23,669 nt of DNA from positions 1-23,669 of IMG/VR virus record IMGVR_UViG_3300034198_019094; one strand, given 5' to 3'. Each line of letters begins with the position of its first letter. Positions within the stretch are counted from its first letter, which is position 1. Below the pieces are notes generated by a model, which was given only the letters and a program-made list of their open reading frames with translations, was not told where the DNA came from and searched no databases. Position numbers and translations under genes: made by a program. This DNA is from a virus. Positions 1,780 through 23,669 of this stretch are shown here, piece by piece.

Positions 1780-2593
1780 AATACCTAAAAAAAGAGGCCA
1801 ACTCAGCCTTGATGAAGAAAAATACATAACAGATAATATCTCATCTTTATCTGCTCAACAAATAGCCGATAATTTAAACAGAAATATTCAACCTATTCAA
1901 AGATATATTAATGAGAATGAGCTATTTTCTAAAGATATTGATTCTAATGATGATAGATACTTAAAAGTAAAGCTTCATAAAAAACCTTTCTGGAATGAGA
2001 TTCTCAAACAGTTTGATGATGATAGTGGAGAATTAAAACTATTTGAAGATACTTGGGTAGGTTTAATCAAACAATTCAGAGAAGATGTATTGCCCGCTGA
2101 AGAATTACAAATTAAACAATTTATTACTATCGAAATTTTAGTTAATAGAAGCATGAAAGAACGAAAACGACACATTAGTGAAACTGATAAACTTCAAAAA
2201 GAAGTAGACAAAGAATATAATAAACCTGAAGATCAAAGAGATATTCCAAAATTAGCCAATATGGAAACTAATTTGAGTTTCGCACGAAATAGCATAGCAA
2301 ATTATACCAATGAATATACTAAATTACTTAATGAGCAACAAAAAATTAGTAAGGACCTTAAGGCCACTCGTGAACAACGAATCAAAAGAATAGAAGATGG
2401 TAAAAGCTCTTGGACAGGATTAATACGAATGCTAGAAGACGAAGAGATAAGAGAAAAAGAAGGAAGAGAAATGGAAATATTAGCAATGGCCACAGAAAAG
2501 CACAAACAAAAATTAGAAAGTTATCATTCATTTGCTGATAATACTGTTGACAAACCATTTCTTACTCCTGAAAGCGTAACGGAAAACTCATGA
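1757..2593 (+). CDS. HTH plus coiled-coil protein, candidate small terminase subunit
   Basis: A 278-residue protein whose start overlaps the sigma-like gene by 23 nt. Residues about 16-54 form an HTH-like segment (SLDEEKYITDN, then SAQQIADNLNRNIQPIQRYINE). The middle is acidic and helical. Residues about 140-260 are strongly charged and heptad-like (long coiled coil: SETDKLQKEVDKEYNKPEDQ and following). An N-terminal DNA-binding HTH followed by coiled-coil oligomerisation is the plan of small terminases, which recognise phage DNA and assemble as rings. The position upstream of the large terminase fits, although three genes lie between. No specific family signature is visible, so a regulatory DNA-binding protein remains possible. 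The stop overlaps the gmd start (ATGA). Confidence 0.45.
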   Translation: MTTDSSYKIPKKRGQLSLDEEKYITDNISSLSAQQIADNLNRNIQPIQRYINENELFSKDIDSNDDRYLKVKLHKKPFWNEILKQFDDDSGELKLFEDTWVGLIKQFREDVLPAEELQIKQFITIEILVNRSMKERKRHISETDKLQKEVDKEYNKPEDQRDIPKLANMETNLSFARNSIANYTNEYTKLLNEQQKISKDLKATREQRIKRIEDGKSSWTGLIRMLEDEEIREKEGREMEILAMATEKHKQKLESYHSFADNTVDKPFLTPESVTENS

Positions 2594-3573
2594 AAACAGC
2601 ATTAATAACGGGAATAACTGGTCAAGATGGAAGCTATCTTGCAGATTTGCTTTTACAAAAAGAATATGTTGTTGTGGGATTACATCGACGAAGCAGCACC
2701 AATAATACTGGTCGTATAAATCATTTGATTCATCATAAAAATTTTATTTTAGAAGAATTTGATCTTACAGATCCTAGCGGCATAAATACGTTGGTAAAAA
2801 AGTATCAACCAGAAGAATTATATAATCTAGGCGCTCAGAGTCATGTGGGAACAAGTTTCAAACAGCCAACAACAACATTTGAAATTGATGCTGTGGGAGT
2901 AATTAATATTCTTGAGGCTATTAAAAATCATAGTATTCATACCAAGTTTTATCAGGCAGGAACAAGTGAAATGTTTGGGCGAAACTATGAAACTGATTCT
3001 AGTGGAAAAAAATATCAAAATGAAAATACCAGAATGCTACCTCAAAGTCCTTACGGAGTAGCTAAACTTGCTTCGCATCATATGGTACAAATTTATAGAT
3101 CAGCATATAATTTATTTTGTTGCTGTGGAATACTTTTTAATCACGAAAGTCCAAGGCGTGGAGAAAATTTTGTTACTAGAAAAATAACAAAGTATATAGG
3201 ACAAATTGTTAGGAAAGAAACAACAGAAAAACTACAACTAGGAAATTTAGATGCTCATCGAGATTGGGGTCATGCGTCTGATTATGTTATGGCAATGTGG
3301 CTAATGTTACAACAAGATACTGCTGATGATTTTGTTATATCAAGTGGAGAAACCCATAGCGTACAAGAATTTTTAGAAAAAGCATTCAGTACTGTTAATT
3401 TAGATTATAAAAACTATGTTAATATTAATTCTGATTTATTTAGACCAGCTGAAGTAGAATATCTTTTAGGAGATTGTAGCAAAGCTAAAAATATACTAAA
3501 TTGGAAAAGAACATATACTTTTGATGATCTAATTAAAGATATGGTATATAGTGATATAAAAAATGAAACGTAA
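2590..3573 (+). CDS. gmd: GDP-mannose 4,6-dehydratase
   Basis: A 327-residue short-chain dehydrogenase-fold enzyme that converts GDP-D-mannose to GDP-4-keto-6-deoxy-D-mannose, the branch point to GDP-fucose, GDP-rhamnose and perosamine. The family signatures are complete: nucleotide-binding TGITGQDGSYL (residues 7-17), RRSS and NTGRI (33-43), YNLGAQSHV (78-86), the catalytic GTSE (124-127) with YGVAK (Tyr155, Lys159), and the diagnostic NHESPRRGENFVTRKIT (184-200). It is slightly shorter than cellular Gmd (about 345-370). The ATG overlaps the upstream stop (ATGA) and its end overlaps the HNH gene by 11 nt, so it is embedded in the operon rather than a separate cassette. Codon use looks like its neighbours. 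No later pathway enzyme is visible here, so the host must supply it or it lies elsewhere. Confidence 0.93.
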   Translation: MKTALITGITGQDGSYLADLLLQKEYVVVGLHRRSSTNNTGRINHLIHHKNFILEEFDLTDPSGINTLVKKYQPEELYNLGAQSHVGTSFKQPTTTFEIDAVGVINILEAIKNHSIHTKFYQAGTSEMFGRNYETDSSGKKYQNENTRMLPQSPYGVAKLASHHMVQIYRSAYNLFCCCGILFNHESPRRGENFVTRKITKYIGQIVRKETTEKLQLGNLDAHRDWGHASDYVMAMWLMLQQDTADDFVISSGETHSVQEFLEKAFSTVNLDYKNYVNINSDLFRPAEVEYLLGDCSKAKNILNWKRTYTFDDLIKDMVYSDIKNET

Positions 3574-4305: not shown

Positions 4306-6304
4306 TGATGCTTGGTTGGGTCTAGGAGATCTAGACAAACTGGATATCGCTAAAAATTTAATGATCAATAGATCAGAAAAAGATATAGAACTACCTGATC
4401 TTCATCTAATGAAAATACTTCGTAATCCTAGATATATAGGAAGTATGGCCAAACTACTATTTAATATAGAGCTTCATCCCATACAAACAGCTATTTTACA
4501 AGAATTCTGGATCCGACCATTTCCAATGTATATAGCCAGTCGTGGATGGGGTAAATCGTTTTTATTAGCATTATATTGTGTTATTAAATGTACATTTAAT
4601 CCTGGTACAAAAATTGTTGTGGTTGGAGCAGCATTTAGACAAAGTAAAATTATTTTTGAATACATGGAAACTATTTGGCGCAATAGCCCCATATTACGAA
4701 GCATATTCAATGGCAATGACGATGGCCCAAGAAGAGATGTTGACCGATGTACTATCAGATTAGGAGATAGTTGGACAATTGCTATTCCTATGGGCGATGG
4801 AAGCAAGATCAGAGGTTTACGCGCACACATAATTATTGCTGACGAATTTGCATCTATATCGCCAGATATTTATGAAACAGTAGTCTTGGGGTTCGCATCC
4901 GTATCTGCTAGCCCTATTCAGAATGTGAAAGAGCAAGCAAAACGTCAAGCTATGATAGATGCTGGTTTATGGAATGAAGAGCTAGAACAACTAGAATATA
5001 AAATGGGTAATCAAGCAATAATCTCCGGAACAGCAGATTATGCCTTTAAACACTTTGCTAGTTACTGGAGACGCTATAAAACTATTATAGAAAGCCAAGG
5101 AGATAAACGTAAATTAGAGGAAATTTTTAAAGGAGAAATTCCAAGTAATTTTAATTGGAGAGACTATAGCATAATTAGAATACCATACGAATTAATCCCC
5201 AAAGGATTCATGGATGATAAACAAGTTAGCAGAGCTAAAGCAACAATACATAATGGTATATATAATATGGAATATGCCGCATGTTTTGTTAAAGATAGTG
5301 AAGGATTTTTTAGAAGAAGCTTAATAGAAAGTTGCGTAGTTTCTGATTCTAACCAAATAATAATAGGAAATAAACCAATAATTTTTGATGCAACCATTAA
5401 AGGAAAACCAGAATGCTCATATGTCTACGGAATTGATCCGGCTAGCGAACAAGATAATTTCAGTATAGTTATATTAGAAATACATAATGATCATTCAAGA
5501 ATAGTTTATACTTGGACAACGAACAGGAGCAACTTTAAAGAAAGACTAAAAACTGGACTAGTTCAAGATCATGACTTCTATGGGTTTTGTGCGAGAAAAA
5601 TTAGAAACTTAATGAAAATATTTCCATGTAGCAGAATAGGCATGGATGCTCAGGGCGGTGGTGTTGCTATAGAAGAAGCATTACATGATCCTACGAAGAT
5701 AGAAGATGGAGAAAATCTAATTTGGCCAGTTATAGACTATGATAAAGCCAAGGATACTGATGATCAACCAGGATTACACATCATAGAGTTAGTTCAATTC
5801 GCTAGGGCTGATTGGACAGCACAGGCTAATCACGGATTAAGAAAAGACTTTGAAGATAAAATCTTGTTATTTCCAAGATTTGATAATTTAACTCTAGGAT
5901 TAGCATTAGATCAAGAAGGCAAAGATATTTTAGAATCTGATCTTAATCCAATATATGATAGTTTAAGCGAATGTATTATTGAAATAGAAGAATTAAAAAA
6001 TGAATTAACCACTATAGTTATGACATCAACTAGTACAGGATCAGGAGCTAGAGACAGATGGGATACTCCAGAAGTTAAATTACAAGGGGGTAAAAAGGGT
6101 CGTTTAAGAAAAGACCGATATAGTGCTTTAGTAATAGCAAATATGTTAGCTCGTCAAATGAATAGAACTTTGCAGACTATCTCTTATGATGTAGTAGGTG
6201 GAAATTCCAAAGATATAGTAAAGCATAATGGCCAAATGTATAAAGGACCAGAATGGTTCACATCGGGAGCTAATGATGCTGATTATCTAGGGATTTATAA
6301 ATAA
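4277..6304 (+). CDS. terL: Terminase large subunit (packaging ATPase-nuclease)
   Basis: A 675-residue motor that pumps DNA into the prohead and cuts it. The ATPase half shows an Arg-containing Walker A, ASRGWGKS (87-94), the Walker B with catalytic Glu, IIIADE (185-190), and a coupling motif, SGTADY (250-255). The RNase-H-like nuclease half shows acidic residues in YGIDPA (Asp387), GMDAQGGG (Asp457) and RKDRYSAL (Asp613). The start used is TTG at 4277, supported by AAGG nine bases upstream; the first in-frame ATG is at 4361 (residue 29) and would still keep all motifs. It is translated overlapping the ERCC4 gene and ends before a 55-bp promoter-bearing gap. Confidence 0.93.
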   Translation: MNDIQKKIFDDAWLGLGDLDKLDIAKNLMINRSEKDIELPDLHLMKILRNPRYIGSMAKLLFNIELHPIQTAILQEFWIRPFPMYIASRGWGKSFLLALYCVIKCTFNPGTKIVVVGAAFRQSKIIFEYMETIWRNSPILRSIFNGNDDGPRRDVDRCTIRLGDSWTIAIPMGDGSKIRGLRAHIIIADEFASISPDIYETVVLGFASVSASPIQNVKEQAKRQAMIDAGLWNEELEQLEYKMGNQAIISGTADYAFKHFASYWRRYKTIIESQGDKRKLEEIFKGEIPSNFNWRDYSIIRIPYELIPKGFMDDKQVSRAKATIHNGIYNMEYAACFVKDSEGFFRRSLIESCVVSDSNQIIIGNKPIIFDATIKGKPECSYVYGIDPASEQDNFSIVILEIHNDHSRIVYTWTTNRSNFKERLKTGLVQDHDFYGFCARKIRNLMKIFPCSRIGMDAQGGGVAIEEALHDPTKIEDGENLIWPVIDYDKAKDTDDQPGLHIIELVQFARADWTAQANHGLRKDFEDKILLFPRFDNLTLGLALDQEGKDILESDLNPIYDSLSECIIEIEELKNELTTIVMTSTSTGSGARDRWDTPEVKLQGGKKGRLRKDRYSALVIANMLARQMNRTLQTISYDVVGGNSKDIVKHNGQMYKGPEWFTSGANDADYLGIYK

Positions 6305-10579: not shown

Positions 10580-11614
10580 ATGTCAGTCAATACCAAAGCA
10601 TTCCAACCAACTCCAGAATTAACAGATCTTCTCGTTCGTTCTGGTTCATCACAAAGAGAAGTTGCTCTAGCCGCTAATGCAGAATTTGCAAAGGCTCTTG
10701 AGCTTCCATTGAGACAGGGTCTGCTCAGTGGCGATATTCTAGACGGTATCTTCGAGCCAATTCAATTAGCTCAAAGTGCTACTCCAGAATTTCCACTAGA
10801 TTTCCTTGCTCCTGGTACCGAAAAGGATTTTGTTGCATATACAATTCCTAATCATGGTTATATTCCAGAGCGTCATGTTGAAGGCGATTACGTCATGGTT
10901 CCAACCTATGACATCGGCGCTTCAATTGACTATCTTCTAAAGTATGCTCGCGATGCCCGCTGGGACATTGTTGGTCGTGCTATGGAGGTTCTAGAAGGAT
11001 CATTTGTCAAGAAGATGAATGACGATGGCTGGCACACAATTCTAGCTGCTGGCGTTGATCGTAATATCGTTGTTTATGACAGCGATGCTGATCCAGGCCT
11101 CTTCACAAAGAGATTAGTCAGTTTAATGAAGACAGTTATGCGTAGAAACGGTGGCGGTAATTCTGCTAGTAATAACCGTGGTCTATTAACAGATCTATAT
11201 CTATCACCAGAAGCAATGGAAGATATTCGCAACTGGGGTCTAGATCAGGTTGATGAAATTACTCGCAGAGAAATCTATACAGCTGCTGATGGTACTGTAA
11301 ATCGTGTTTTCGGTATCAATCTACACGACCTAGACGAGCTTGGTGAAGGTCAAGAATATCAACTATTCTATACCGACACTCTTGGTGGTACTCTTCCACA
11401 GAATGCTGGTGGAGTTTCTACCAACGATAAAGCTGAAATTGTTGTTGGTCTAGATCTTCGTAAGAGAGACAGTTTCATTATGCCAGTTCGTCAAGAAGTA
11501 CAAATCTTTGAAGACGATACACTACATCGTCAAAAGAGAGCGGGCTTCTACGGATGGGCCGAACAAGGTTTCGCTGTTCTTGATAACCGTAGAGTTCTAC
11601 TCGGCGCTCTATAA
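10580..11614 (+). CDS. Major capsid protein (HK97-fold type)
   Basis: A 344-residue protein forming the icosahedral shell. The layout fits an HK97-type capsid. It has an N-terminal arm and helix (residues 1-60), an extended loop region (PGTEKDFVAYTIPNHGYIPE, then GDYVMVPTYDIGASIDYLLK), and a long spine-helix region with ARDARWDIVGRAMEVLEGSFVKKMNDDGW (about 122-150). A C-terminal beta region ends in RQKRAGFYGWAEQGFAVLDNRRVLLG. The context decides it: it follows portal, protease/scaffold and decoration genes, has a strong GGGAG ribosome site seven bases before the ATG, a GC-richer codon choice than neighbours, and a strong terminator immediately after. The T4-type protease would probably trim its N-terminus; the site is not evident. 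Confidence 0.85.
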   Translation: MSVNTKAFQPTPELTDLLVRSGSSQREVALAANAEFAKALELPLRQGLLSGDILDGIFEPIQLAQSATPEFPLDFLAPGTEKDFVAYTIPNHGYIPERHVEGDYVMVPTYDIGASIDYLLKYARDARWDIVGRAMEVLEGSFVKKMNDDGWHTILAAGVDRNIVVYDSDADPGLFTKRLVSLMKTVMRRNGGGNSASNNRGLLTDLYLSPEAMEDIRNWGLDQVDEITRREIYTAADGTVNRVFGINLHDLDELGEGQEYQLFYTDTLGGTLPQNAGGVSTNDKAEIVVGLDLRKRDSFIMPVRQEVQIFEDDTLHRQKRAGFYGWAEQGFAVLDNRRVLLGAL

Positions 11615-11739: not shown

Positions 11740-12255
11740 ATGAGTTGGAAAGCAGAAATCCCAATTATTGTAAGAGTTTTAGTAAGTGACCTAACAGAAA
11801 ATCCAGTTTATAGTGATGAAAGATTAATACAAGCCATAGCAGTATCGGCTAAATATGTTCAATTTGATGTTGCTTTAGAGCATCAATATAATGTTGATGT
11901 TATTCAACCCGAAATAACTCCGGATCCCACCACAGAAAGAGACGAAATATTTATCAGTCTTGTTTCGTTAAAAGCAGCTTGTATAATAGATCAAAGTACA
12001 CTAAGAACAAAAGCCGCTATGGAAGGAATAAGAGCCTCTCTGGGACCAGCAGCTTTAAGTGTTGGTGGAAGCCTCGAAGGATTAAGATTGGTCATAGATA
12101 AAGGCCCTTGTGCCCTATATGAGGAGCTTACATCTCATTGGGATGTTAAAGACGCTACTGCTATTAGAGCAATCTTTAGCCCATTTGTTGGAAACAATTT
12201 CAATCCAAGATATCTGCAAAATTACTCATATAGATCAAGAGACTTTTTCTCATAA
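11740..12255 (+). CDS. Probable neck / head-tail connector protein
   Basis: A 171-residue protein with AGGAG five bases before the ATG. It looks mostly helical at the N-terminus (VRVLVSDLTENPVYSDERLIQAIAVSAKYVQ), with a central helix (SLVSLKAACIIDQSTLRTKAA) and a loop-rich C-terminus ending in an aromatic stretch (NYSYRSRDFF). A short helical protein encoded right after the capsid and ahead of tail proteins commonly seals the portal and joins the tail (HK97 gp6-type connectors and equivalents). No signature residue proves this; the call rests on position, size and helical pattern. Confidence 0.5.
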   Translation: MSWKAEIPIIVRVLVSDLTENPVYSDERLIQAIAVSAKYVQFDVALEHQYNVDVIQPEITPDPTTERDEIFISLVSLKAACIIDQSTLRTKAAMEGIRASLGPAALSVGGSLEGLRLVIDKGPCALYEELTSHWDVKDATAIRAIFSPFVGNNFNPRYLQNYSYRSRDFFS

Positions 12256-12273: not shown

Positions 12274-12726
12274 ATGCCAGCAGCAGAATATAATTTTACT
12301 ATCGAAAAAGGAACATCTTTCGTTATCGCATTTGAGTATAAAACAGATAATAATGAGCCAATAGATATAACTAATTGGTGTGCTAGAATAAGATGGATCG
12401 AAGATAAATTAGATGGCCAAGGTAATACGGTTATAAAAACATTTGTTACCAATACTAGAAATAGTGACTATGAGTTAACTATAGATCCATTATTAGGAAA
12501 AGTAGTATTTAAACTTAGTGCTTCTTTCACTAGTTCACTAACTTTTGGTGGGGCAAGATATGATTTCGAGCTTCAAGAACCAAACGATCTTTATTCTGGT
12601 GGAGGAAGAAAGGTCTTTAGAATTCTTCAAGGAACTATTGGTTTAGTTTCTAGAAATGTTGAGGATGATACAGAGTTCACTTGCAACACAGACATTCAAA
12701 GCGATTGTGGAACATGTAGCCCATGA
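12274..12726 (+). CDS. Beta-sandwich tail/baseplate protein (BppU-like)
   Basis: A 150-residue protein, AAAGG about eight bases before the ATG. The opening FTIEKGTSFVIAFEYKTDNN and EPIDITNWCARIRWIED follows the pattern of the small Ig-like N-terminal domain of phage baseplate-upper/receptor-binding assembly proteins, continuing with regular strands to ILQGTIGLVSRNVE. It ends in a Cys-containing tail (CNTDIQSDCGTC, residues 137-148) that could cross-link or bind metal. Its stop overlaps the start of the giant fibre gene (ATGA), so the two are translated together. It probably serves as the anchor or adaptor of that fibre. Confidence 0.5.
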   Translation: MPAAEYNFTIEKGTSFVIAFEYKTDNNEPIDITNWCARIRWIEDKLDGQGNTVIKTFVTNTRNSDYELTIDPLLGKVVFKLSASFTSSLTFGGARYDFELQEPNDLYSGGGRKVFRILQGTIGLVSRNVEDDTEFTCNTDIQSDCGTCSP

Positions 12727-15700
12727 CAATAGTCAATGTTTCAGAAACATATAATTCGAATAAATATTTAGTTATAACACAACAAAAGGATCCTGAGTCA
12801 TTAATAACGACAAGAATCCTAATAACTGATAATTCGACAAACCAAATTAAAATTATAGATATTTCCAAAGGTCCACAAGGAAATATTGGTCCTCAAGGCA
12901 TTCAAGGATTACCAGGAAAAGATGCTACCACCTTTGATATTTTGCCGATAAGTAGTGGTGGAACTAATAATACTTCATTCGTAAATAATAAAATTATTTA
13001 TTTTGATGGTGATAAATTAAGTAGTTCTGATTATACTTTCAATGATATATTATCAATTAATAATGCTAATGCTATCACTGGTATTATAGCTGGAACAGGA
13101 TTATCAAAAGTTGAAAATGGTTCACAGGTTACTTTGAATGTTAATATTGGAGAAGGATTAACAACAAATAATAATCAAATTTTAATTGATGATACTATTG
13201 CTCGTAGAGTAGAATTAACTGTTGGTAATATCTCTGGTATATTAGGAATATCAAAAGGTGGAACTAATAATAGTAGTTTTTTAACTAATTATTTAGTTTA
13301 TTATGATGGAACAAAATTATCATCTTTTCCATTAGCCACTGGTAGAATAGTAACTAGTGGATCAACAATAAATATAGTTGCTGGCTCAGGCTTAATTGGA
13401 GGGGGAAATGTTAGTTTACCAAATGGTTCAATAGTATTAAATATAGGATCATCTCAAGATGTTATAGTTTCTGAAAATGCAATAGAATTAAGCTCAACCG
13501 GCATAGCTGGCACATATAGCAAAATAACAACAGACTCTAAAGGCAGAGTAATTTCAGGAGTGAATTTAACATCTCAAGATATAATAAATATTCTCGGATT
13601 CACCCCATGGCATTCTGGCAATGATGGATCAGGATCTTTATTAGATGCTGATAAATTAGATGGTAAAGATTCTACTTATTTTTTAAACTTTAATAATCTC
13701 ACTGGAACTATAAATACTTCAATACTTCCTAATAGCATTACCAATACCGGTATCTATACTAAAGTAACGGTAAATTCTAAAGGATTGGTTATAAATGGAA
13801 CAGGACTCGACTATTCAGATATCACAGGAGCCTTACGATATAGACCAGTAAGTGTAACTGGTGATAATATTTATGGTAATATAAATTTATATGGGGACTT
13901 AAATCTAAGAAATGGGAATCTAACATTAGAAGATAATCTCCCAATTTTTGCTGCAGAAAATAGTAGTTTAACTCCTAGTGATCCAAGAGGATTTAGTTTC
14001 GTTTATGGAACAATAAATCCAAGAACAGGAATATTAGCATATTATCCTAACATGGATCAATTAAGATTAGTAACAAATATTTTTGGAACAGGAGAAAATG
14101 GACTTGGCGGAGGAGATAGTCAAAATGGATATGATATAGACATAGACGGTGGAGATGCTTCTAGTATCTTTTTGCTTGGTAATTTAGATGGAGATCAATC
14201 CGTAGTACTGTTAGAAAATATTGCTGATAAAAAATATGTTAGTTTAACCTCGAATCAAATAATTAGTGGATTAAAATATTTTAATAGTCCATTATCTGTT
14301 AATAGATATATTGATATTTCTAGTTTTAATCACAATGGACCGGCTCTAATTCTTAATGGTAATAATAATTTAATTCCAGATCTTAATGCAGATTTTCTAG
14401 ACGGTAATCATGGTGATTATTATACAAATGCTGAAAATTTAACCGGAACGTTATATTATCAAAATGTTACAGTTACTAATCTAGAAGGTGAAGATCATTA
14501 TCTTGCTATGTTTGATGATAGGGGTGTTGATCAGGATTCTGGCATTAGTCGAACAGTATCCTCATCCATAGTAAAACAGTCAGGTTCATCAATCATCATA
14601 CAGAATCCGAATACCGCCTCTGCCGAATTATCTGTAGGTGACAATAATCCTATAGTTGGTACAAATAGTACTGCTATCGGAATGGACAACCTAATCAATA
14701 GCGACAATTCTTTAGCTGTCGGTCAAAATAATACTATTAATGGATATGATAGCGTTGGAATAAATTCTGGATCTTTGGTCAATTCTGATTATTCATTTGC
14801 TATGGGAAAACATGGAACAACATGGATAGAAAATCAATTTAGCATAGGAGCTTTTGAGGAGAGATATAATAATTCTAGACTATACCACGGTCAACTATCA
14901 ACTACTGCAATAGGTTTTAAAGGAGATACACAAGATACTTGGCAAAAATTATCTCCAGATATTAATATTCCAAATAATAAAACTATATTATATAATATAG
15001 AATTAATTTTTAGTAAGTACGGCGGAACTGGTGTTGCAGCATTTAACTTTAGCAGTGGAATAATTAAAAATATAAATGGAACAAACTATTTAATACAACC
15101 AGATACTAAAACAGAAATACATAATGATTCTCAAATTAGAGATTATATTTATGGCTTAAAATTAGGATCTAATGATACAGAATATAAAAAACTTCATGTT
15201 TTATATCCACCAATAGAGAACAATGATTTACAAATTCAAAACTTAAATCCAGTTTTAAAAATTAGACCAGAACTTACAGAACAACATGGACATTTTGATA
15301 AGACATATGATGGTAAAATAATATTGACTATGGATAAACCTATATCCTCTGGGTGGTCAACGTCATATGATTATACAAAATATATAGATATTAAATCTTA
15401 TAATCATAAAATGGTTACTGGGTGTTTAGTGAATATATTTGGCTTATCTGGAAATCCTCTTACGATGGCATCTGGGCCATACGAGGTACATTCGATATAT
15501 GATAAAAATAATTTTTCTATTATAGATCATTCATGGTCTGGTAGATATTTAGTAGATAATTCTATAGCATATTTATTTATCTCGGATAATTCACTAAGTG
15601 GATCACAATATACCAATAATAGATCATTCAGTGGATCAATCGTAGTATCGTCTCCTAATAATTCATATATACAAACACAAGTTAGTAATTTAAATAAATA

Positions 15701-18700
15701 TATAAATCCTGGTATGAAAATAAATATTTCTTCATTACATGCTGATGAAATAGATACTACTTTTTGTAATTCTGGAATATTTACAATAACTGATGTTATA
15801 GGATCTGATATATATATTGATCCTATGATTTTTGAAGATGCGGCAGGCAGAACAGATATTAAACTATTTTTTACTCCATATACATATGGATTTAATAGAT
15901 TCTTATCTTCTGAAGCTTTTTTTATAGATACTATTGATTATGGAGATTTTGTTAGATCTAATAACTCATTTATACCAAGTGATTCTGGAATTTATTTGAG
16001 ACTAGATACCAATAATCCAGATCTTGATCTTGATCCTGTTATTATAACACCATTATTTAATAGTACTGGAAATATTACTTTAAATCAAAAAAGAAACTAT
16101 AGTGGAGTATATGATAGATCAACACAGTTTACAGAATATAATGGTATCTACACACAGTTTCCATCAATTTCTGATACTGGATTGATTTGGATATCTGGTT
16201 CACAAACCATCAATAGTATACTGAGTGGATATAATCCATATATTAAGTTTTTTGGAGCAAAAAATGTTTTTAGTGGAAATTTAACCAATAATTCTAATAT
16301 TATTACAGGATGTTATCCTCCACAAATTGGTAGAATACATACAGATATGGTTTTACATTCTCCAGTTCCAGGATTTGCATTAAATAATACAGTTATATCG
16401 ATCTCTCAGAATGGTCAAGATATAACTATGTCATCATCTTTTACAGGTAATAGTACTGGTGTGTTTATCACATATAGTGGAGATATTCCATTAAATAATA
16501 ATTATGAAATATTATCTATTATTGATGATAAACAATTATTCTTAAAACGTATATATAATCCAGTATCAGAAAGTGGTGCCTATGTTAGTGGAACAGTTAA
16601 ATTTTATACAGATTATGGAATAGGAACCGTTAGTATAACCACAGATGATCCGTTAAATGTCGCAAATGACGAATCTGTTTATATTAATTTCTTAAATAAA
16701 GATAATGTTAATGCTTTGATACCAGTGAGCGACAATTATGTGACGTACGATGCTATGCCAGGAGAATTCAAAGTTACCTCCTACCATCTCATGCCTGACT
16801 CTGGAGTTTCCACAGGAGGAGACGCATTATTCACACTAGATAAAGATCATGGATATTTACCAATAAATTATGAAACTAATTCTCTAAAACAAATCCCACT
16901 TAAATTTTTATTACCAAGTGAATATTCTAGTTTTGATGGATATTTTACAACAGGCAATTTCTCTGTAGAATTTAGACAAGATGCAGAAACGAAGCCATCA
17001 GGGAGATTATTATATACATTATCAAGTATTCCTGATACGCTAAATATACCATACTCTAGAATTACCGGTCTTCATATTAAAGACGAAACAGACGGCATTA
17101 GTACTACTGGTATAATATCTTTAAATACTTCATTTATGTTTGATGATTCTAATATCATAGTTTTAGAAAATGATACATATAATGATTATGAGCCTCATAT
17201 TCCAGTTATTACTGGAGATATATGTTACTATACATATATTGAAAAACAATATTCAGTAAATAATTTATCTAGAACACCAAAGTCTGGATTATTCAATATA
17301 GTAGCTGTTACTGGACATAAAATAGTAATAAATGACGATAAAAATCAACTATTAGAAGAAATAAATAAAGATAAACTTTGGAATGGAGAGTTACCAGCAG
17401 ATTCTTGGACAACGGTTCCAACAGATACTTTCGGAATTTATAAAATCAGGATGAGTGGACTACATGACTATTTTAACATTAATGATAAGCTATTAGTTTA
17501 TTTTAGCGATTTATCTAATAATCTTAATAATAAACCATTGAAATTTAAAATAAATGATATAGATAGAGAAGAATATGATTATATTGATGCTCATTTTGCT
17601 TATAGAAAACTAGCAGCTACTGGAGTTGACACTGCCGTTAGATTTGAAGGGAAATTTTTTAGACCTTTACCCACAGGTATTAATCCGAATGATCTTGAGG
17701 AAATATCTTTGAATCAAGGTACTAATATTGGAAATTTCTATACCGAAGATTACGGTCCAAACTATTATACTACTCTTCCTCATAATTATTTTTATGGTAC
17801 TATGACTAGTGGTTCAAATACCATAAGTAATTTATCATTAAGTAACCATAAAACATTTTTAAATATGCCAATAAGCGGATTATATAAAAATAATGATACA
17901 AATAATTTTATATTTTTTACTGGACTCATAGAAAATAAGACATTAAATCCTGATTCGTTAACTCTGAGAGAACCATTTGTCGGCCCAGCAGATACTGTTG
18001 TAGAGGCAACATTGTTTTATCTTAGTGATTATTCTTACGAAATTTTTGGTTACTCAGATAATAATTGGAATATACCGTATACTTTTAATGATGATCAATT
18101 ATTTAATTTTAATCTATCTGGACCATCATTAAGAGTTCAAACATATTTTGAAAATGATGATGCTGGAGTAGATTTATATGGTCAGGGATCTTTGACATAT
18201 AGATCCAGAATTCCTGTTCCAAGACTATTTTATACTCTAGAACTAATAGAAGATGATCCTGCATTGAGACTAAAGACTATAAAAGCATTACAAAAAAATC
18301 TCGTTGGATATGATATTAAATATATTGGATATCAAGACGGATCAGTTTATAGTCCATTAAATAATATATACTTTCATTCTCATGGAACAAAAGATGAATA
18401 CTGGAAAAGAGACTCTACCGGCAAACTTATAGACCACCCTTTAACTGGAACATATTTCGTACATAACGCACCATCATTATGTAGAAGCGGAACTATGTGT
18501 GTGCATATCACTGGCATATCGAATATAAATAGATTTGATCCTGTGGATTCTGTTTATCTAGATTTTATAGATGGTGGATCAGCCTTAAATGGATTGTATA
18601 CAGTTAATGATAAACTATTAAATAATTTTATTAGTTTTAATATGCCATATAATTCAGACTATATCAATAGTTATGGATTAGTTTATTTAATAGATAGCTC

Positions 18701-21700
18701 TACTGATAATATAAAAACCAATAAAAATCCTAATTATAATAATATTTTTACACTTCCATCGATAACAACAGCTTCTTCAAATATTTACTCTAATAAATTT
18801 TCACAATTTAATAGTTTTAATAATAGATGGAAACATTTGATTGAAATAGATAACCAAACAGAACCGCAAGTATTAGAAAATGAATCAATTTCTATAGGAT
18901 ATAATGGAGATACTTCTCAGGAGTCTATAGATATTATAATTTTGACACCTATTGAGCTGGATTTTGAAGTGGAGTATGGTATTAATGATATCTTTACTGC
19001 TACTATTGATAATAAAATAGAAATCAATATTAATCAATCATACCAACTTAAAATCATTACTACCGGAGGCGCCGGTAATTGGGCAGATCCGAGTCAAAAT
19101 CCAAGAAAAGATATTCCATATATAAATATATTGGGACTTAAAAATTATTCTATAAGAACTGATGATATAATATATGATGATATAAATAAACAATGGGAAA
19201 TAATAGTTGATTGTGAAGCAATACCAAAAGAATATGCTCAAAAACAAATAATTATCAGAGTTGCTGATCAAAGTGATCGTAAAAATAAGAATTATTATCT
19301 GGAAGTTATAGCTCCATTAACCATCACAAACATTGAGAATACTATATACGGCATAACAAGTTCTAGTACTAATTGGAGATTATACTTTGAAGTCTATGAT
19401 AATGGACAAAATCCTCTAGAAGGAATAGGTATTTCTATAGATAATATAGGAAGTAACTCATATTATGAGCCACTATCAGCTGGTATAAATGATAATGGTA
19501 TTAATGGAGACTGGAAACTTTATTGTGTCAATGGACAATCTAGCCAAACTGGAATTTTTGCCCCAGTTATAACTGCTACCAAAGGAGACCAAACGGCTAC
19601 CATCACAGGGGTGCTCAAAATATTTGATGATAGTTCAAAACAAAAGCCATATGATATTTCATTTAGGGCTCTTAAAAGCAATTATAATATAAACTATAGC
19701 TCAGACAGTAGCACAGATCTATTTTTTATTGTGCCATTCAATGAATTTATAGATAGTGATAATTGGTTTAATTTAAGTTTTAAAAATGTTTCGAGTAATC
19801 TATCTATAAATAACGTTACCATATCTTATCCAGAACAAGATTTTCCAGCTCTATTATATAGGGCTAATATTAATGGAAATATAGGATTTTATCAGCCGAT
19901 CATATCTGGTTCAATTCAACAACCGTCTGGCGATCAACTTATTACAACAACTAAAGAAACAGGATTAAATATAACTATTTACGATCCGATATATGTTGAT
20001 TCATCAGAACTAGTTCAGCCTCTTGATTTTATAGATACTAAACCATGGGCTGTTGATTTTTATGTCAAGGGCGGAGGATCTGCAAAAAGATATGATTATC
20101 CACCCAAAGTATATTTGGGCAACATTCCAAACAACGGTAATTATTTGATGGATGGACAAACAAAATTAATAGAGTATAATACTGGTTATGAATATGATTT
20201 TACAAATAATTGGTGGAAAATAAAAGTAACAGGAACACAAGATCTTTACGGAAATTATGCTGCTGTGACAGGATCTTATCCTTTGTATATTTATATTGAG
20301 GATGATGCTTCATCGTATTCCGGATATATAAACTATATTACTAGTAAAAAACCATATATGGCTAATATCAGATTAGATAAATATCTTACTCCTAATAATT
20401 CTTTAGAATTTAATGTTGATATTAAAGATACTCCTTATTCATCATCAGAAAGTCCATCTATTTCGATAGAAGATGGAGGTACGCAAGGAGATCCGATAGC
20501 TAATTCGGTTGTAATACACAAAAAATATGATAAACATACTAATGTATGGGAAACATATTTTAGCGGTCAACCAATTACGAATAAATGGGATGCTAGAACA
20601 AGAATTAATAATAATAATAATGATTTTGAAATATCATGTAAAGGTATTCTTGATGAAAAAATTATTGTTGCTGGTAAATTAAATATGGTAGAAACAGAGG
20701 GTGCGTATGCTGTTTTTTCTCCATTAGTAATTAATAACGTTCGAGCCATCAGCAATCCTTATGAAGCAGAACCTGGAGGTGATCCATGGGCAATAACGTT
20801 TAATACGGCCGGTGGATTGGAAGACTTTAATTATCCTCCTCAAATATTTTTCCAGGGTTTTCCAACCCCCTGCACAGGATACGACCCTTCTCTTGATAAT
20901 GGCAATATAAATACTAATAATCAATGTTTTGGAGAGAAAAAATGGGACGCATCAAGCAAAACATGGGAATTCAAATTTAGTGGTATCCAATCATGTATAG
21001 CAGATACAGAGTTCCCTATCACTATAATTGCAAGAGATAAAAAAGATAATCAAATAATTACTGGATATGGTCACTATGATATTAAATATAGTATGATCAA
21101 GTACAAAAAAGATCAAGCGTTTCCAAATCCAGTTTGGTCAGGAGATTCGGAAACAACACTTTATCCACAATGTCAAACATATTCATCTGATAGATGGTAC
21201 TATAAAACCGTTAATAGAGATAAGTGTCCTAGTCCTACTGGATTTTCTGGATTAATTATTTGGGGATCATTACCACAAGGATTGAAATTAATTCATGAAA
21301 CCGCTTTCGTACCTGAATTTAATCCATTAAATGCTGGTAGAATAAATTATTCATTACCATATAGTAATACTAACCCTAGTTATTTCAGAATAACTGGATA
21401 TCCTACAGAATTTGCAAATGGTAGTAATTATCCTAATGAATTAAAGATAGCTGTTGTTGACGCTAGGGGTAATTCTGGTGTAAAAACGATAACTTTCACG
21501 GATGGTTCTAGAGCTATGCAAACATCAGCAACAGATATGACAATATATTTTGCTAATAGTGGATATAGCTATAGTCCAAGATTAATATCTGATAATGGAG
21601 CAATTGGTTCCTTAGGCTCCAAGATTATTGGTCAAAGTGGAGATAATTCACAAGATATCTTAAGACCATCAATATCACCACAATCGATGATGTGTTTGAG

Positions 21701-23669
21701 TATACTTCCTCATTCTAATTGTTTTTATTCTACTGGAATTTATAGAGTAGAGACTGGAGGAAATGATATTTCTTTTAGTGGATATGGAACAAAATCAAGT
21801 TTATTGCCAGAAAATAAAATTATAACCAGCTCAGAAGATATATATCTTGAATTCGATAACACACTTAGTGCTCAAAATGGAATAAACACAGCAATAAGAT
21901 TAACAGATAATGGCAGCCCAACAGACATATTAAGAATAACCGCAAATGGTAGTTATTCACAAAATACTACAGGATGGGTAAAAATATTAAAAATATACAA
22001 TAATCTTATTAAAAATAAACAGATTGATGATATAGACTATAAGAATGGTTCAAGTGACGGTTTTCAAGTCATATCACCTTCTTTATTAACAACTACGGGA
22101 TTGCTTGGTGGAGGATCTTATGTTTATCAACAAGATAAGTATGGCTTTTTAGGAAAAATGAAACCATCCTTTACTTCGAGAATAAAAGTGGATCAATCAA
22201 CAAGTTCAAGGATATATTCAGGTAATTTTGATTTGAATGATGCTATAACAATGTCATTAATACCAGGACAAAGATCAGAACCATATATTATTAAATTTAG
22301 TAATACTTGTTACGAAACTGGATTCTTAAGAGTTAGCGGCATAGTTATACCAACACCAACTCTAGATTTAGCTGACGATCCTCCTGGAGCCGAAAATTAT
22401 TCTTATCCTAATTCAAGTTTTTCTGTTGTTTCCAGATTAGCATATGGCGAAACTTCTAATGATAGGGCTATACAGGATAACCAAAGAAATAAATCTTTTT
22501 ATTACACTATTAAAGATGCTATTACTAATTTACCAATATCTTCATATACAACTCCAAAAAATAGCACCTCACAAACGTCATTTCTTATTAATAATTCAGA
22601 TATTGGACTTAATATTATTCCTTCATCTACAGTTTTGGCTTTATATATGAATTATTATTCTAGTATACCATTTCCTACATATGATAAACAAGCTATACCA
22701 GATTTACATAATGTTTATTATTGGGTGCATTCAACAGGTAATACCAATATAGGATACAATTCATTTCCTGCTCATATTATTGTTGATAATTTTGATATTA
22801 TCACTAATAGTGGTGCTGTACTAAATAAATCGTTAAATATAGTAGGAGGATATATTAAAGAATATAGCAACACAGCGCCTTATCAAGAATACATTAATTA
22901 TCCACCCAATATTACTGGTTTAATACAAAAAAATATTGGTAAAACTTATTATGCCGGATATGTACAATCTCCTAATGATTCAAATGTAATCATTAATCTG
23001 CCAGCAGATGCTGCTTTCCAGTCAGGAGATCCTATTAGCTTATCGTTTAAGAATGACCCATCGATAACATTACCATATATAGACAATATTCCACTAACTG
23101 GAATTTTATTATCTTCAATAGATGCTTCTAATAATATAATTATTCAAAATGATAGTTCAAATAATTTAAGAACCGGAATAGTAGAAATAAGAGATTCTTT
23201 CTTAATATCCGGAGTAAACAATAATAGTAATTCTGAATTAAGAATACTTGTTAAAAAAGATTCTTTATCATCCATTTCGGTTTCTGGAACTCAAATAGAT
23301 TTATTAAATATCTACAATAGTAGATCTACACAAAATAATTTATTTAGAGCAGATTCGTCTTATTTTGATGATAATAAAATTACTAAGGACTATAGACTTA
23401 TTATAGTTTCCGGGGATAGTAATAGTGTTTATGCAAAAGTTAAGGATAAAACTCAAATTGTGGACGCTCAGAATACTTGGTATCTAGATCTACTTTCAGA
23501 TTCCAGTGGCTATTGCCACATGAGGAAAATTATTACAAATACAGAAATTGTAACTACCGGAGTATCTTTTAATAAAGTAGGACACTGGATATCATCCATA
23601 ACTGGAATTCCACTATCTTTATATGGTCAATATATTTACAAAACTATAACATGTGAAAATAGTAATAAT
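12723..23669 (+). CDS. Giant modular tail fibre / adhesin, 3' end outside the window
   Basis: The frame starting at ATG 12723 (ATGA overlap with the upstream gene) stays open to the last base: at least 3,649 codons with no stop. Modules: collagen-like Gly-X-Y triplets (aa 50-67); two GGTNN-S-F units exactly 100 aa apart (79 and 179); tail-fibre motifs TYSKITTDSKGRVISG (about 266) and YTKVTVNSKGLVING (about 345); DADKLDGKDSTYF (about 305) and NADFLDGNHGDYY (about 553), each followed by NLTGT; four 14-residue YadA-like repeats (649-705); scattered G-x-Y/F-x-I units (about 918-1974); Ig-like modules (about 2200-2790); a putative-Ig (He_PIG-like) segment (2844-2930). Composition is Asn/Ser/Thr/Ile/Tyr-rich with few Cys except a cluster near aa 2720-2850. 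It is probably a trimeric, surface-exposed receptor-binding or side fibre. The C-terminal tip lies outside the window. Confidence 0.85.
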   Translation, partial: MTIVNVSETYNSNKYLVITQQKDPESLITTRILITDNSTNQIKIIDISKGPQGNIGPQGIQGLPGKDATTFDILPISSGGTNNTSFVNNKIIYFDGDKLSSSDYTFNDILSINNANAITGIIAGTGLSKVENGSQVTLNVNIGEGLTTNNNQILIDDTIARRVELTVGNISGILGISKGGTNNSSFLTNYLVYYDGTKLSSFPLATGRIVTSGSTINIVAGSGLIGGGNVSLPNGSIVLNIGSSQDVIVSENAIELSSTGIAGTYSKITTDSKGRVISGVNLTSQDIINILGFTPWHSGNDGSGSLLDADKLDGKDSTYFLNFNNLTGTINTSILPNSITNTGIYTKVTVNSKGLVINGTGLDYSDITGALRYRPVSVTGDNIYGNINLYGDLNLRNGNLTLEDNLPIFAAENSSLTPSDPRGFSFVYGTINPRTGILAYYPNMDQLRLVTNIFGTGENGLGGGDSQNGYDIDIDGGDASSIFLLGNLDGDQSVVLLENIADKKYVSLTSNQIISGLKYFNSPLSVNRYIDISSFNHNGPALILNGNNNLIPDLNADFLDGNHGDYYTNAENLTGTLYYQNVTVTNLEGEDHYLAMFDDRGVDQDSGISRTVSSSIVKQSGSSIIIQNPNTASAELSVGDNNPIVGTNSTAIGMDNLINSDNSLAVGQNNTINGYDSVGINSGSLVNSDYSFAMGKHGTTWIENQFSIGAFEERYNNSRLYHGQLSTTAIGFKGDTQDTWQKLSPDINIPNNKTILYNIELIFSKYGGTGVAAFNFSSGIIKNINGTNYLIQPDTKTEIHNDSQIRDYIYGLKLGSNDTEYKKLHVLYPPIENNDLQIQNLNPVLKIRPELTEQHGHFDKTYDGKIILTMDKPISSGWSTSYDYTKYIDIKSYNHKMVTGCLVNIFGLSGNPLTMASGPYEVHSIYDKNNFSIIDHSWSGRYLVDNSIAYLFISDNSLSGSQYTNNRSFSGSIVVSSPNNSYIQTQVSNLNKYINPGMKINISSLHADEIDTTFCNSGIFTITDVIGSDIYIDPMIFEDAAGRTDIKLFFTPYTYGFNRFLSSEAFFIDTIDYGDFVRSNNSFIPSDSGIYLRLDTNNPDLDLDPVIITPLFNSTGNITLNQKRNYSGVYDRSTQFTEYNGIYTQFPSISDTGLIWISGSQTINSILSGYNPYIKFFGAKNVFSGNLTNNSNIITGCYPPQIGRIHTDMVLHSPVPGFALNNTVISISQNGQDITMSSSFTGNSTGVFITYSGDIPLNNNYEILSIIDDKQLFLKRIYNPVSESGAYVSGTVKFYTDYGIGTVSITTDDPLNVANDESVYINFLNKDNVNALIPVSDNYVTYDAMPGEFKVTSYHLMPDSGVSTGGDALFTLDKDHGYLPINYETNSLKQIPLKFLLPSEYSSFDGYFTTGNFSVEFRQDAETKPSGRLLYTLSSIPDTLNIPYSRITGLHIKDETDGISTTGIISLNTSFMFDDSNIIVLENDTYNDYEPHIPVITGDICYYTYIEKQYSVNNLSRTPKSGLFNIVAVTGHKIVINDDKNQLLEEINKDKLWNGELPADSWTTVPTDTFGIYKIRMSGLHDYFNINDKLLVYFSDLSNNLNNKPLKFKINDIDREEYDYIDAHFAYRKLAATGVDTAVRFEGKFFRPLPTGINPNDLEEISLNQGTNIGNFYTEDYGPNYYTTLPHNYFYGTMTSGSNTISNLSLSNHKTFLNMPISGLYKNNDTNNFIFFTGLIENKTLNPDSLTLREPFVGPADTVVEATLFYLSDYSYEIFGYSDNNWNIPYTFNDDQLFNFNLSGPSLRVQTYFENDDAGVDLYGQGSLTYRSRIPVPRLFYTLELIEDDPALRLKTIKALQKNLVGYDIKYIGYQDGSVYSPLNNIYFHSHGTKDEYWKRDSTGKLIDHPLTGTYFVHNAPSLCRSGTMCVHITGISNINRFDPVDSVYLDFIDGGSALNGLYTVNDKLLNNFISFNMPYNSDYINSYGLVYLIDSSTDNIKTNKNPNYNNIFTLPSITTASSNIYSNKFSQFNSFNNRWKHLIEIDNQTEPQVLENESISIGYNGDTSQESIDIIILTPIELDFEVEYGINDIFTATIDNKIEININQSYQLKIITTGGAGNWADPSQNPRKDIPYINILGLKNYSIRTDDIIYDDINKQWEIIVDCEAIPKEYAQKQIIIRVADQSDRKNKNYYLEVIAPLTITNIENTIYGITSSSTNWRLYFEVYDNGQNPLEGIGISIDNIGSNSYYEPLSAGINDNGINGDWKLYCVNGQSSQTGIFAPVITATKGDQTATITGVLKIFDDSSKQKPYDISFRALKSNYNINYSSDSSTDLFFIVPFNEFIDSDNWFNLSFKNVSSNLSINNVTISYPEQDFPALLYRANINGNIGFYQPIISGSIQQPSGDQLITTTKETGLNITIYDPIYVDSSELVQPLDFIDTKPWAVDFYVKGGGSAKRYDYPPKVYLGNIPNNGNYLMDGQTKLIEYNTGYEYDFTNNWWKIKVTGTQDLYGNYAAVTGSYPLYIYIEDDASSYSGYINYITSKKPYMANIRLDKYLTPNNSLEFNVDIKDTPYSSSESPSISIEDGGTQGDPIANSVVIHKKYDKHTNVWETYFSGQPITNKWDARTRINNNNNDFEISCKGILDEKIIVAGKLNMVETEGAYAVFSPLVINNVRAISNPYEAEPGGDPWAITFNTAGGLEDFNYPPQIFFQGFPTPCTGYDPSLDNGNINTNNQCFGEKKWDASSKTWEFKFSGIQSCIADTEFPITIIARDKKDNQIITGYGHYDIKYSMIKYKKDQAFPNPVWSGDSETTLYPQCQTYSSDRWYYKTVNRDKCPSPTGFSGLIIWGSLPQGLKLIHETAFVPEFNPLNAGRINYSLPYSNTNPSYFRITGYPTEFANGSNYPNELKIAVVDARGNSGVKTITFTDGSRAMQTSATDMTIYFANSGYSYSPRLISDNGAIGSLGSKIIGQSGDNSQDILRPSISPQSMMCLSILPHSNCFYSTGIYRVETGGNDISFSGYGTKSSLLPENKIITSSEDIYLEFDNTLSAQNGINTAIRLTDNGSPTDILRITANGSYSQNTTGWVKILKIYNNLIKNKQIDDIDYKNGSSDGFQVISPSLLTTTGLLGGGSYVYQQDKYGFLGKMKPSFTSRIKVDQSTSSRIYSGNFDLNDAITMSLIPGQRSEPYIIKFSNTCYETGFLRVSGIVIPTPTLDLADDPPGAENYSYPNSSFSVVSRLAYGETSNDRAIQDNQRNKSFYYTIKDAITNLPISSYTTPKNSTSQTSFLINNSDIGLNIIPSSTVLALYMNYYSSIPFPTYDKQAIPDLHNVYYWVHSTGNTNIGYNSFPAHIIVDNFDIITNSGAVLNKSLNIVGGYIKEYSNTAPYQEYINYPPNITGLIQKNIGKTYYAGYVQSPNDSNVIINLPADAAFQSGDPISLSFKNDPSITLPYIDNIPLTGILLSSIDASNNIIIQNDSSNNLRTGIVEIRDSFLISGVNNNSNSELRILVKKDSLSSISVSGTQIDLLNIYNSRSTQNNLFRADSSYFDDNKITKDYRLIIVSGDSNSVYAKVKDKTQIVDAQNTWYLDLLSDSSGYCHMRKIITNTEIVTTGVSFNKVGHWISSITGIPLSLYGQYIYKTITCENSNN
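12945..13335 (+). repeat. GGTNN duplication, 300-bp period, in the giant fibre gene
   Basis: The coding sequence around 12957 (SSGGTNNTSFVNNKIIYFDGDKLSS) recurs around 13257 (SKGGTNNSSFLTNYLVYYDGTKLSS), exactly 300 nt later and in frame. GGTGGAACTAATAATA is preserved at the DNA level. Such GGT units are common in phage tail fibres and usually mark repeated shaft segments. Confidence 0.75.
14667..14837 (+). repeat. YadA-type 14-residue repeats in the giant fibre gene
   Basis: Residues 649-705 read STAIG, SLAVG, SVGIN and SFAMG at exact 14-residue steps (649, 663, 677, 691), each followed by polar loops ending in Asn-Ser-Asp or similar. The S-x-A-x-G pattern at this period is the signature of YadA/Hia head beta-rolls, which are obligate trimers. 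This indicates a trimeric fibre. Confidence 0.75.
19360..21090 (+). repeat. Tandem Ig-like modules in the giant fibre gene
   Basis: A recurring strand start appears at W2218 (NWRLYFEV), W2348 (NWFNLSF), W2442 (PWAVDFYV), L2561 (SLEFNVDI) and W2689 (PWAITFNT), spaced 94-130 residues apart. The modules at 2442 and 2689 are clearly related: PWA-x-x-F, a Gly-rich turn, and DYPPKVYLG against NYPPQIFFQG. Most end with a Trp-containing strand and a paired strand before the next linker. Confidence 0.6.

Follow-up and report, generated by a model that had tools for sequence, protein, structure and literature searches.

The collar protein p132 of phage T5 adopts an Ig fold that is related to BppU_N, and some 50 residues from the N-terminus of the fibre pb1 have been proposed to account for unassigned density that passes through it (PMC10038345). 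The locus described here has a similar layout, with a small adaptor, apparently of Ig-fold type, encoded next to a long putative fibre whose first ~50 residues would act as the anchor. It differs from T5 in that the fibre is far longer, a second fibre gene carries the anchor as well, and relatives have a duplicated adaptor; the T5 and giant fibres have no detectable sequence relation. Moraphages offer a second comparison. These are large, uncultured, mostly freshwater phages with predicted Bacteroidota hosts, in which tail sheath and gp25 are present in 27 of 28 genomes, without a recognised tape measure (PMC12619734).

The window, that is the whole 23,669-bp stretch analysed, is an entire IMG/VR virus record, and the features described below from position 10580 onwards lie on its + strand. 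Its major capsid protein (10580..11614) is the clade marker, with at least 597 relatives in IMG/VR and a distant match (~22% identity) to gp27 of Bacillus phage G. The terminase is ~24% identical to those of Bacillus phages, and a comparison of the portal protein with isolates gave no match. Related capsid genes are also found in five GTDB MAG contigs, by label three Bacteroidota, one Alphaproteobacteria and one SAR202, and these labels offer no more than a hint at the host. Size, habitat and predicted hosts, with three of five MAGs carrying a capsid relative labelled Bacteroidota, are similar to those of the moraphages. In contrast to the sheath and gp25 of those phages, a clear tape measure is present here, and neither sheath (PF04984) nor gp25 (PF04965) was matched in seven records searched with these Pfam models only.

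The capsid gene is followed by a gene (11740..12255) that giant-bearing relatives conserve ahead of the adaptor; it has no family match and probably encodes a head completion protein. Next comes the adaptor, a small protein of 150 aa assigned to a beta-sandwich type from profiles and conserved position (12274..12726). It overlaps the start of the giant gene by ATGA, and the two are translationally coupled. In almost every relative fetched, a member of the adaptor family lies downstream of the capsid gene. Profile signals to LtfC (PF23926, E 0.0054) and BppU_N (0.022) are weak and come from few members. The latter, to the N-terminal domain of the TP901-1 baseplate upper protein, is below normal significance and comes from one member, and here the adaptor is a separate gene. 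Among PHROGs the adaptor matches phrog_1084 (2e-13) and phrog_3304, ‘L-shaped tail fiber protein assembly’ (0.003). It also matches one PDB structural protein at 3.8e-7; T5 p132 was not matched in the PDB.

The giant gene (12723..23669) begins with an ATG and continues for 3,649 codons to the end of the contig, where its 3' end is cut; the stop codon was lost at this edge because the window is the entire record. HMM matches and alignment define an N-terminal anchor domain (residues 1-48, 12723..12866) that is conserved in the giants and recurs, by HMM, only in the gene of 385-398 aa that immediately follows the giant in relatives. By analogy with T5 this domain of ~48 residues would fit the adaptor, whose LtfC and L-shaped-fibre-assembly signals are weak. 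The anchor is followed by a short collagen-like Gly-X-Y stretch (residues 49-67, 12867..12923; Pfam Collagen in two of four members, best E 0.007) and by two tandem ‘SGGTNN...YYDG.K.SS’ repeats (residues ~71-232, 12933..13418), detected as an internal repeat in all 13 members (best iE 1e-10). Two further repeats are of tail-fibre type. The first, ‘WHxGNDGxxSxLDADxLDG’ (residues 296-369, 13608..13829), matches phrog_25747 and phrog_5181; the second, ‘NLNADxLDGxHGxYYxNAxNxTG’ (residues 545-600, 14355..14522), is an internal repeat that matches phrog_8443. A YadA-head-like beta-roll stretch (residues ~630-706, 14610..14840) matches PDB 1p9h (E 1.1e-5) and 3wp8 (3.8e-4), and alignment reveals a conserved ‘HGQxSTxAxxxxGxTxxxWxxxxPxIxIPxxKT’ domain at residues 720-782 (14880..15068).

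Judged by these features, the N-terminal ~780 residues of the giant are tail-fibre-like. Pfam searches with the window protein alone gave no match; among PHROGs, phrog_25747 (5.5e-9) and phrog_8443 (1.9e-8, spanning residues 553-730) were found, and these two and phrog_7389 (‘tail fiber protein’) match significantly in 8-9 of 13 members. In the relative G9, the LDADxLDG repeat shares 57-76% identity over 37-47 aa with the tail fibres of phages that infect cyanobacteria or Sinorhizobium, such as S-TIM66 and phiN3; the rest of the giant, however, has no match in their records. The YadA/invasin likeness is similarly confined, in that a single short module of the phage fibre corresponds to the trimeric autotransporter heads, and the fibre lacks a membrane anchor. 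The original prediction of a giant composite phage fibre, for which matches to tail-fibre shafts or trimeric adhesins were to be sought, is borne out by phrog_25747, phrog_8443 and the trimeric YadA/invasin head 1p9h, together with the LtfC/BppU_N-like adaptor upstream.

From its sequence we think it likely that the giant is a very long, modular side fibre, adaptor-held, host-binding and probably trimeric, of a large tailed phage that has not been cultured; the trimer is suggested by the collagen-like and YadA-like stretches, which are all that implies it. The first ~50 residues would plug into a ring or collar of the upstream adaptor, as the T5 L-shaped fibre is thought to do in p132, and the collagen-like, tail-fibre-repeat and YadA-like stretches would form the root and upper shaft. 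Beyond these, a fast-evolving middle that gains, loses and moves Ig/cadherin-type modules would be the likeliest place for specificity, and the distal half would consist of conserved beta domains, including degenerate Ig-like repeats, with one more Ig-like domain last. Such a fibre would probably project from the virion on a beta-structured shaft and may bind sugars or proteins of the host surface at adsorption, through either the variable middle or the conserved distal domains. The fibre reading is supported by the virion genes that adjoin the giant in relatives, including a baseplate-wedge-type protein, an Mtd-like fibre and the tape measure, and by the adaptor and P-domain that take the giant's site in the relatives G020 and G021. 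The distal tip is the most variable part of classical side fibres, whereas in the giant it is the middle that varies and the C-terminal half that is conserved, and this counts against the fibre reading.

The gene after the giant in relatives encodes the anchor-sharing protein of 385-398 aa, collagen-like and of tail-fibre type. Behind it come genes for a protein whose C-terminus is of baseplate-wedge type, for a large MATLFFEGF protein and for an Mtd-N-type fibre; further on lie tube-like proteins, named by position and repetition only, and the tape measure. The giant gene is set among head-completion and tail-tube-like genes, and on this ground a neck position is equally possible; we infer that the protein sits at the tail tip or the neck and that it binds a receptor. 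A doubtful but still credible alternative is an appendage of the neck, collar or head, a whisker or ‘hair’ that would serve surface attachment or control of fibre deployment, in place of a receptor-binding tail fibre. Whiskers and hair-like fibres occur on the head and tail of other large phages (PMC7824862), and the order of capsid, head-completion gene, adaptor and giant, with tube-like proteins and the tape measure farther along in relatives, after other genes, would suit such a structure, as would an anchor common only to the giant and its next gene. It is opposed by the resemblance of the adaptor to LtfC and BppU_N, which hold tail-tip fibres, and by the neighbouring gene with the baseplate-wedge-type domain.

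For the side fibre that we favour, the alignment defines a hypervariable middle at residues 980-1849 (15660..18269), 870 aa long here and up to ~1,780 aa in relatives. This region carries indels and gains or loses He_PIG domains among members. Of 13 members, nine have a He_PIG/cadherin-type Ig domain in this region (best E 1.2e-14), with dystroglycan as its PDB counterpart (1.3e-13), but the window's own copy has none above the Pfam cut-off. Residues 1182-1264 of the window protein, in mid-protein, are 41% identical to residues 3140-3220 of the relative G032, near its C-terminus, and this altered placement of the same module is evidence for module movement. A rotavirus VP4-like PDB match in the middle (E 0.012) was set aside as too weak. 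AlphaFold2 modelling of window residues 980-2179 from a 4-row alignment gave a mean pLDDT of 28, too low for the model to be of use.

The C-terminal half (residues 1850-3649+, 18270..23669), ~1,800 residues in the window, is kept in all members. It matches nothing in Pfam or the PDB, and its PHROG matches come from one relative only (L138), where they look like a C-terminal extension. The giant at L138:3500-16162 ends in an extra segment with YYNCEFHSSMAGI, and this segment is probably the source of the match to phrog_677, ‘baseplate wedge tail fiber protein connector’ (1.7e-20). Window HMMs revealed a degenerate repeat of ~110 residues with the pattern PWxxxFxxxGG..PPxIxL..P..YdxxxxxWxixxxG...F.I...D.tGs, with cross-matches between units down to 2.7e-7. 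Three units lie in the window, at residues ~2125-2235 (19095..19427), ~2430-2550 (20010..20372) and ~2650-2775 (20670..21047); a fourth copy is the very last domain in relatives and is absent from the window contig. The pattern suggests that these repeats are Ig-like. The ~2,900 residues originally described as beta-rich modules that could not be assigned to one family thus divide into hypervariable modules and a conserved half in which degenerate Ig-like repeats occur, and for the C-terminal half the lack of a Pfam or PDB match stands. We tentatively raise the possibility that this half is a new architecture of diverged Ig-like and other beta domains, conserved distally, with receptor specificity in the swappable middle and not at the tip. 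If so, the giant would resemble a long arm in which the forearm is variable and the hand constant. A 4-row AlphaFold2 model of residues 2927-4126 of G9 had a mean pLDDT of 31 and was likewise of no use. Half of the giant has no known relative, and a structure would therefore inform how phages reach and choose their hosts.

Sharp borders between the conserved N-terminal part, the variable middle and the conserved C-terminal half might also be expected if a protease cut the giant into several virion proteins. We regard this as improbable, given that the giant is a single frame in all relatives and that profile searches detected no protease domain in it.

Full-length homologues of the giant were gathered with two profiles, of the C-terminal half and the N-terminus. 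Twelve distinct complete homologues run from ATG to stop (4,690, 4,126, 4,819, 4,112, 4,198, 4,221, 4,465, 4,438, 4,189, 4,061, 4,121 and 4,589 aa), and a 13th relative is an open frame of 4,024 aa. The complete relatives come from unrelated assemblies, on contigs of up to 230 kb, and several are present in two separate contigs; their giants sit directly behind the same small adaptor gene. Together with the window protein, the 12 show pairwise identities of 27-81%. Fibres of this length were originally described as uncommon; in this phage clade 4-4.8 kaa is the usual size, and the family of ~4,000-4,800 residues belongs to widespread uncultured large phages, as the number of related IMG/VR capsid genes attests. 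Searches by tblastn of 50,697 phage records with the N-terminal 2,000 aa and the C-terminal half found no match, and no description of the giant gene was found in the literature. Residue 3648 of the window protein aligns to positions 4554/4690, 3996/4126 and 4664/4819 of three complete relatives, so the window copy lacks ~130-155 C-terminal residues; the whole protein would have roughly 3,800. The tip was indeed not reached, as originally stated, and the gap is only ~130 residues.

The giant frame is real and intact and is no artefact. With the composition of the region itself (30% GC, 8.4% stops per codon), 3,649 stop-free codons have a probability of ~10^-139, and the frame is therefore not due to chance. 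An independent contig, IMGVR_UViG_3300032232_001164, aligns with 14,046 bp of the window, 99.97% identical with four mismatches and no gaps, and includes giant codons 1-1348; a contig extending the window beyond its end was looked for and none was found. Full-length dN/dS in three close pairs is 0.17, 0.13 and 0.14, which indicates that the frame is selected as one protein; the middle region has the highest values in two of the three pairs (0.19-0.22). A chimeric assembly, or several genes fused through lost stops, might be suspected from a metagenomic contig that ends inside the gene, and from the relative G032, in which the start of the giant is duplicated and broken. The second contig, the end-to-end alignment of the 12 complete relatives and these dN/dS values leave such an origin very little room. 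We rejected it at the level of the family; window 16769-23669 is the part unshared with the second contig. The claim in the original prediction that the frame could not be chance holds on the same three grounds of probability, second contig and complete homologous frames, and none of the findings named there as counter-evidence, a stop, a join or a non-structural profile, turned up in the giant. The gene product is a real, intact, selected and widely conserved fibre of a known kind, with a conserved distal half that has no assigned family. The giant of G032 itself is an open frame of 3,407 residues, and its start (L159:~4560-4700), broken and duplicated, reflects either an assembly error or a real mutation.

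Length and a place among tail genes are all that commend the giant as an internal tail protein, whether tape measure or other, a reading we reject as next to impossible. Besides the giant, G013 has a distinct tape measure gene product of 5,682 aa (PF10145, 5.8e-23) and G008 a similar frame of ~5,393 codons; Pfam found no tape-measure profile in the window protein; and the giant, which is absent from sister phages, contains tail-fibre repeats and a YadA-like head. Tape measure genes in the clade have 5,400-6,000 codons (L164:1800-18845; L166:9492 to L167:5667; L158:16429 to L161:14404). By the usual rule of 0.15 nm of tail length per residue, these correspond to tails of ~0.8-0.9 micrometre. 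The G021 copy is on a record with short N runs, and the G013 tape measure contains EF-hand matches (1.9e-6) at about residues 4219-4267 (L164:10200-18845).

A giant in every relative, an idea we dropped, is contradicted by G020, G021, G022 and G024, in which neither the profile of the C-terminal half nor that of the N-terminus was found. Giant-less phages have capsid proteins 87-90% identical to the window's; in G020 and G021, which lack the giant block, the figure is 87-88%, and a second adaptor fused to a P_proprotein domain occupies the giant's site. One site can thus hold either a small adaptor-P-domain protein or an adhesin gene block of >15 kb in phages with nearly the same capsid. A small capsid tree, weakly supported, explains the four giant-less records by one change. 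The fusions of second adaptor and proprotein-convertase P-domain (PF01483, 7e-8) lie at L160:3349-4368 and L158:6072-7091.

Several relatives have two adaptor genes, the first leading to a protein of 72-130 aa and variable fibre genes, with the giant further downstream. The 72-130 aa protein (MSDFIIEI..IETS, ending DCG[TS]P) stands behind the first adaptor in most relatives (loci L004-L083); in L031, L054 and L072 the MSDFIIEI..IETS start belongs to proteins of 700 to >2,000 aa. Comparison of the giant anchor with these ‘slot’ proteins by hhalign is suggestive only (probability 26.5%, E 7e-4, 22 columns). At the other end of the window, a GDP-mannose 4,6-dehydratase gene (PF16363, 5.5e-120; 2590-3573) lies just upstream of the HNH, ERCC4 and terminase genes, and a similar gene is found upstream of the terminase in the relative G008 (L134).
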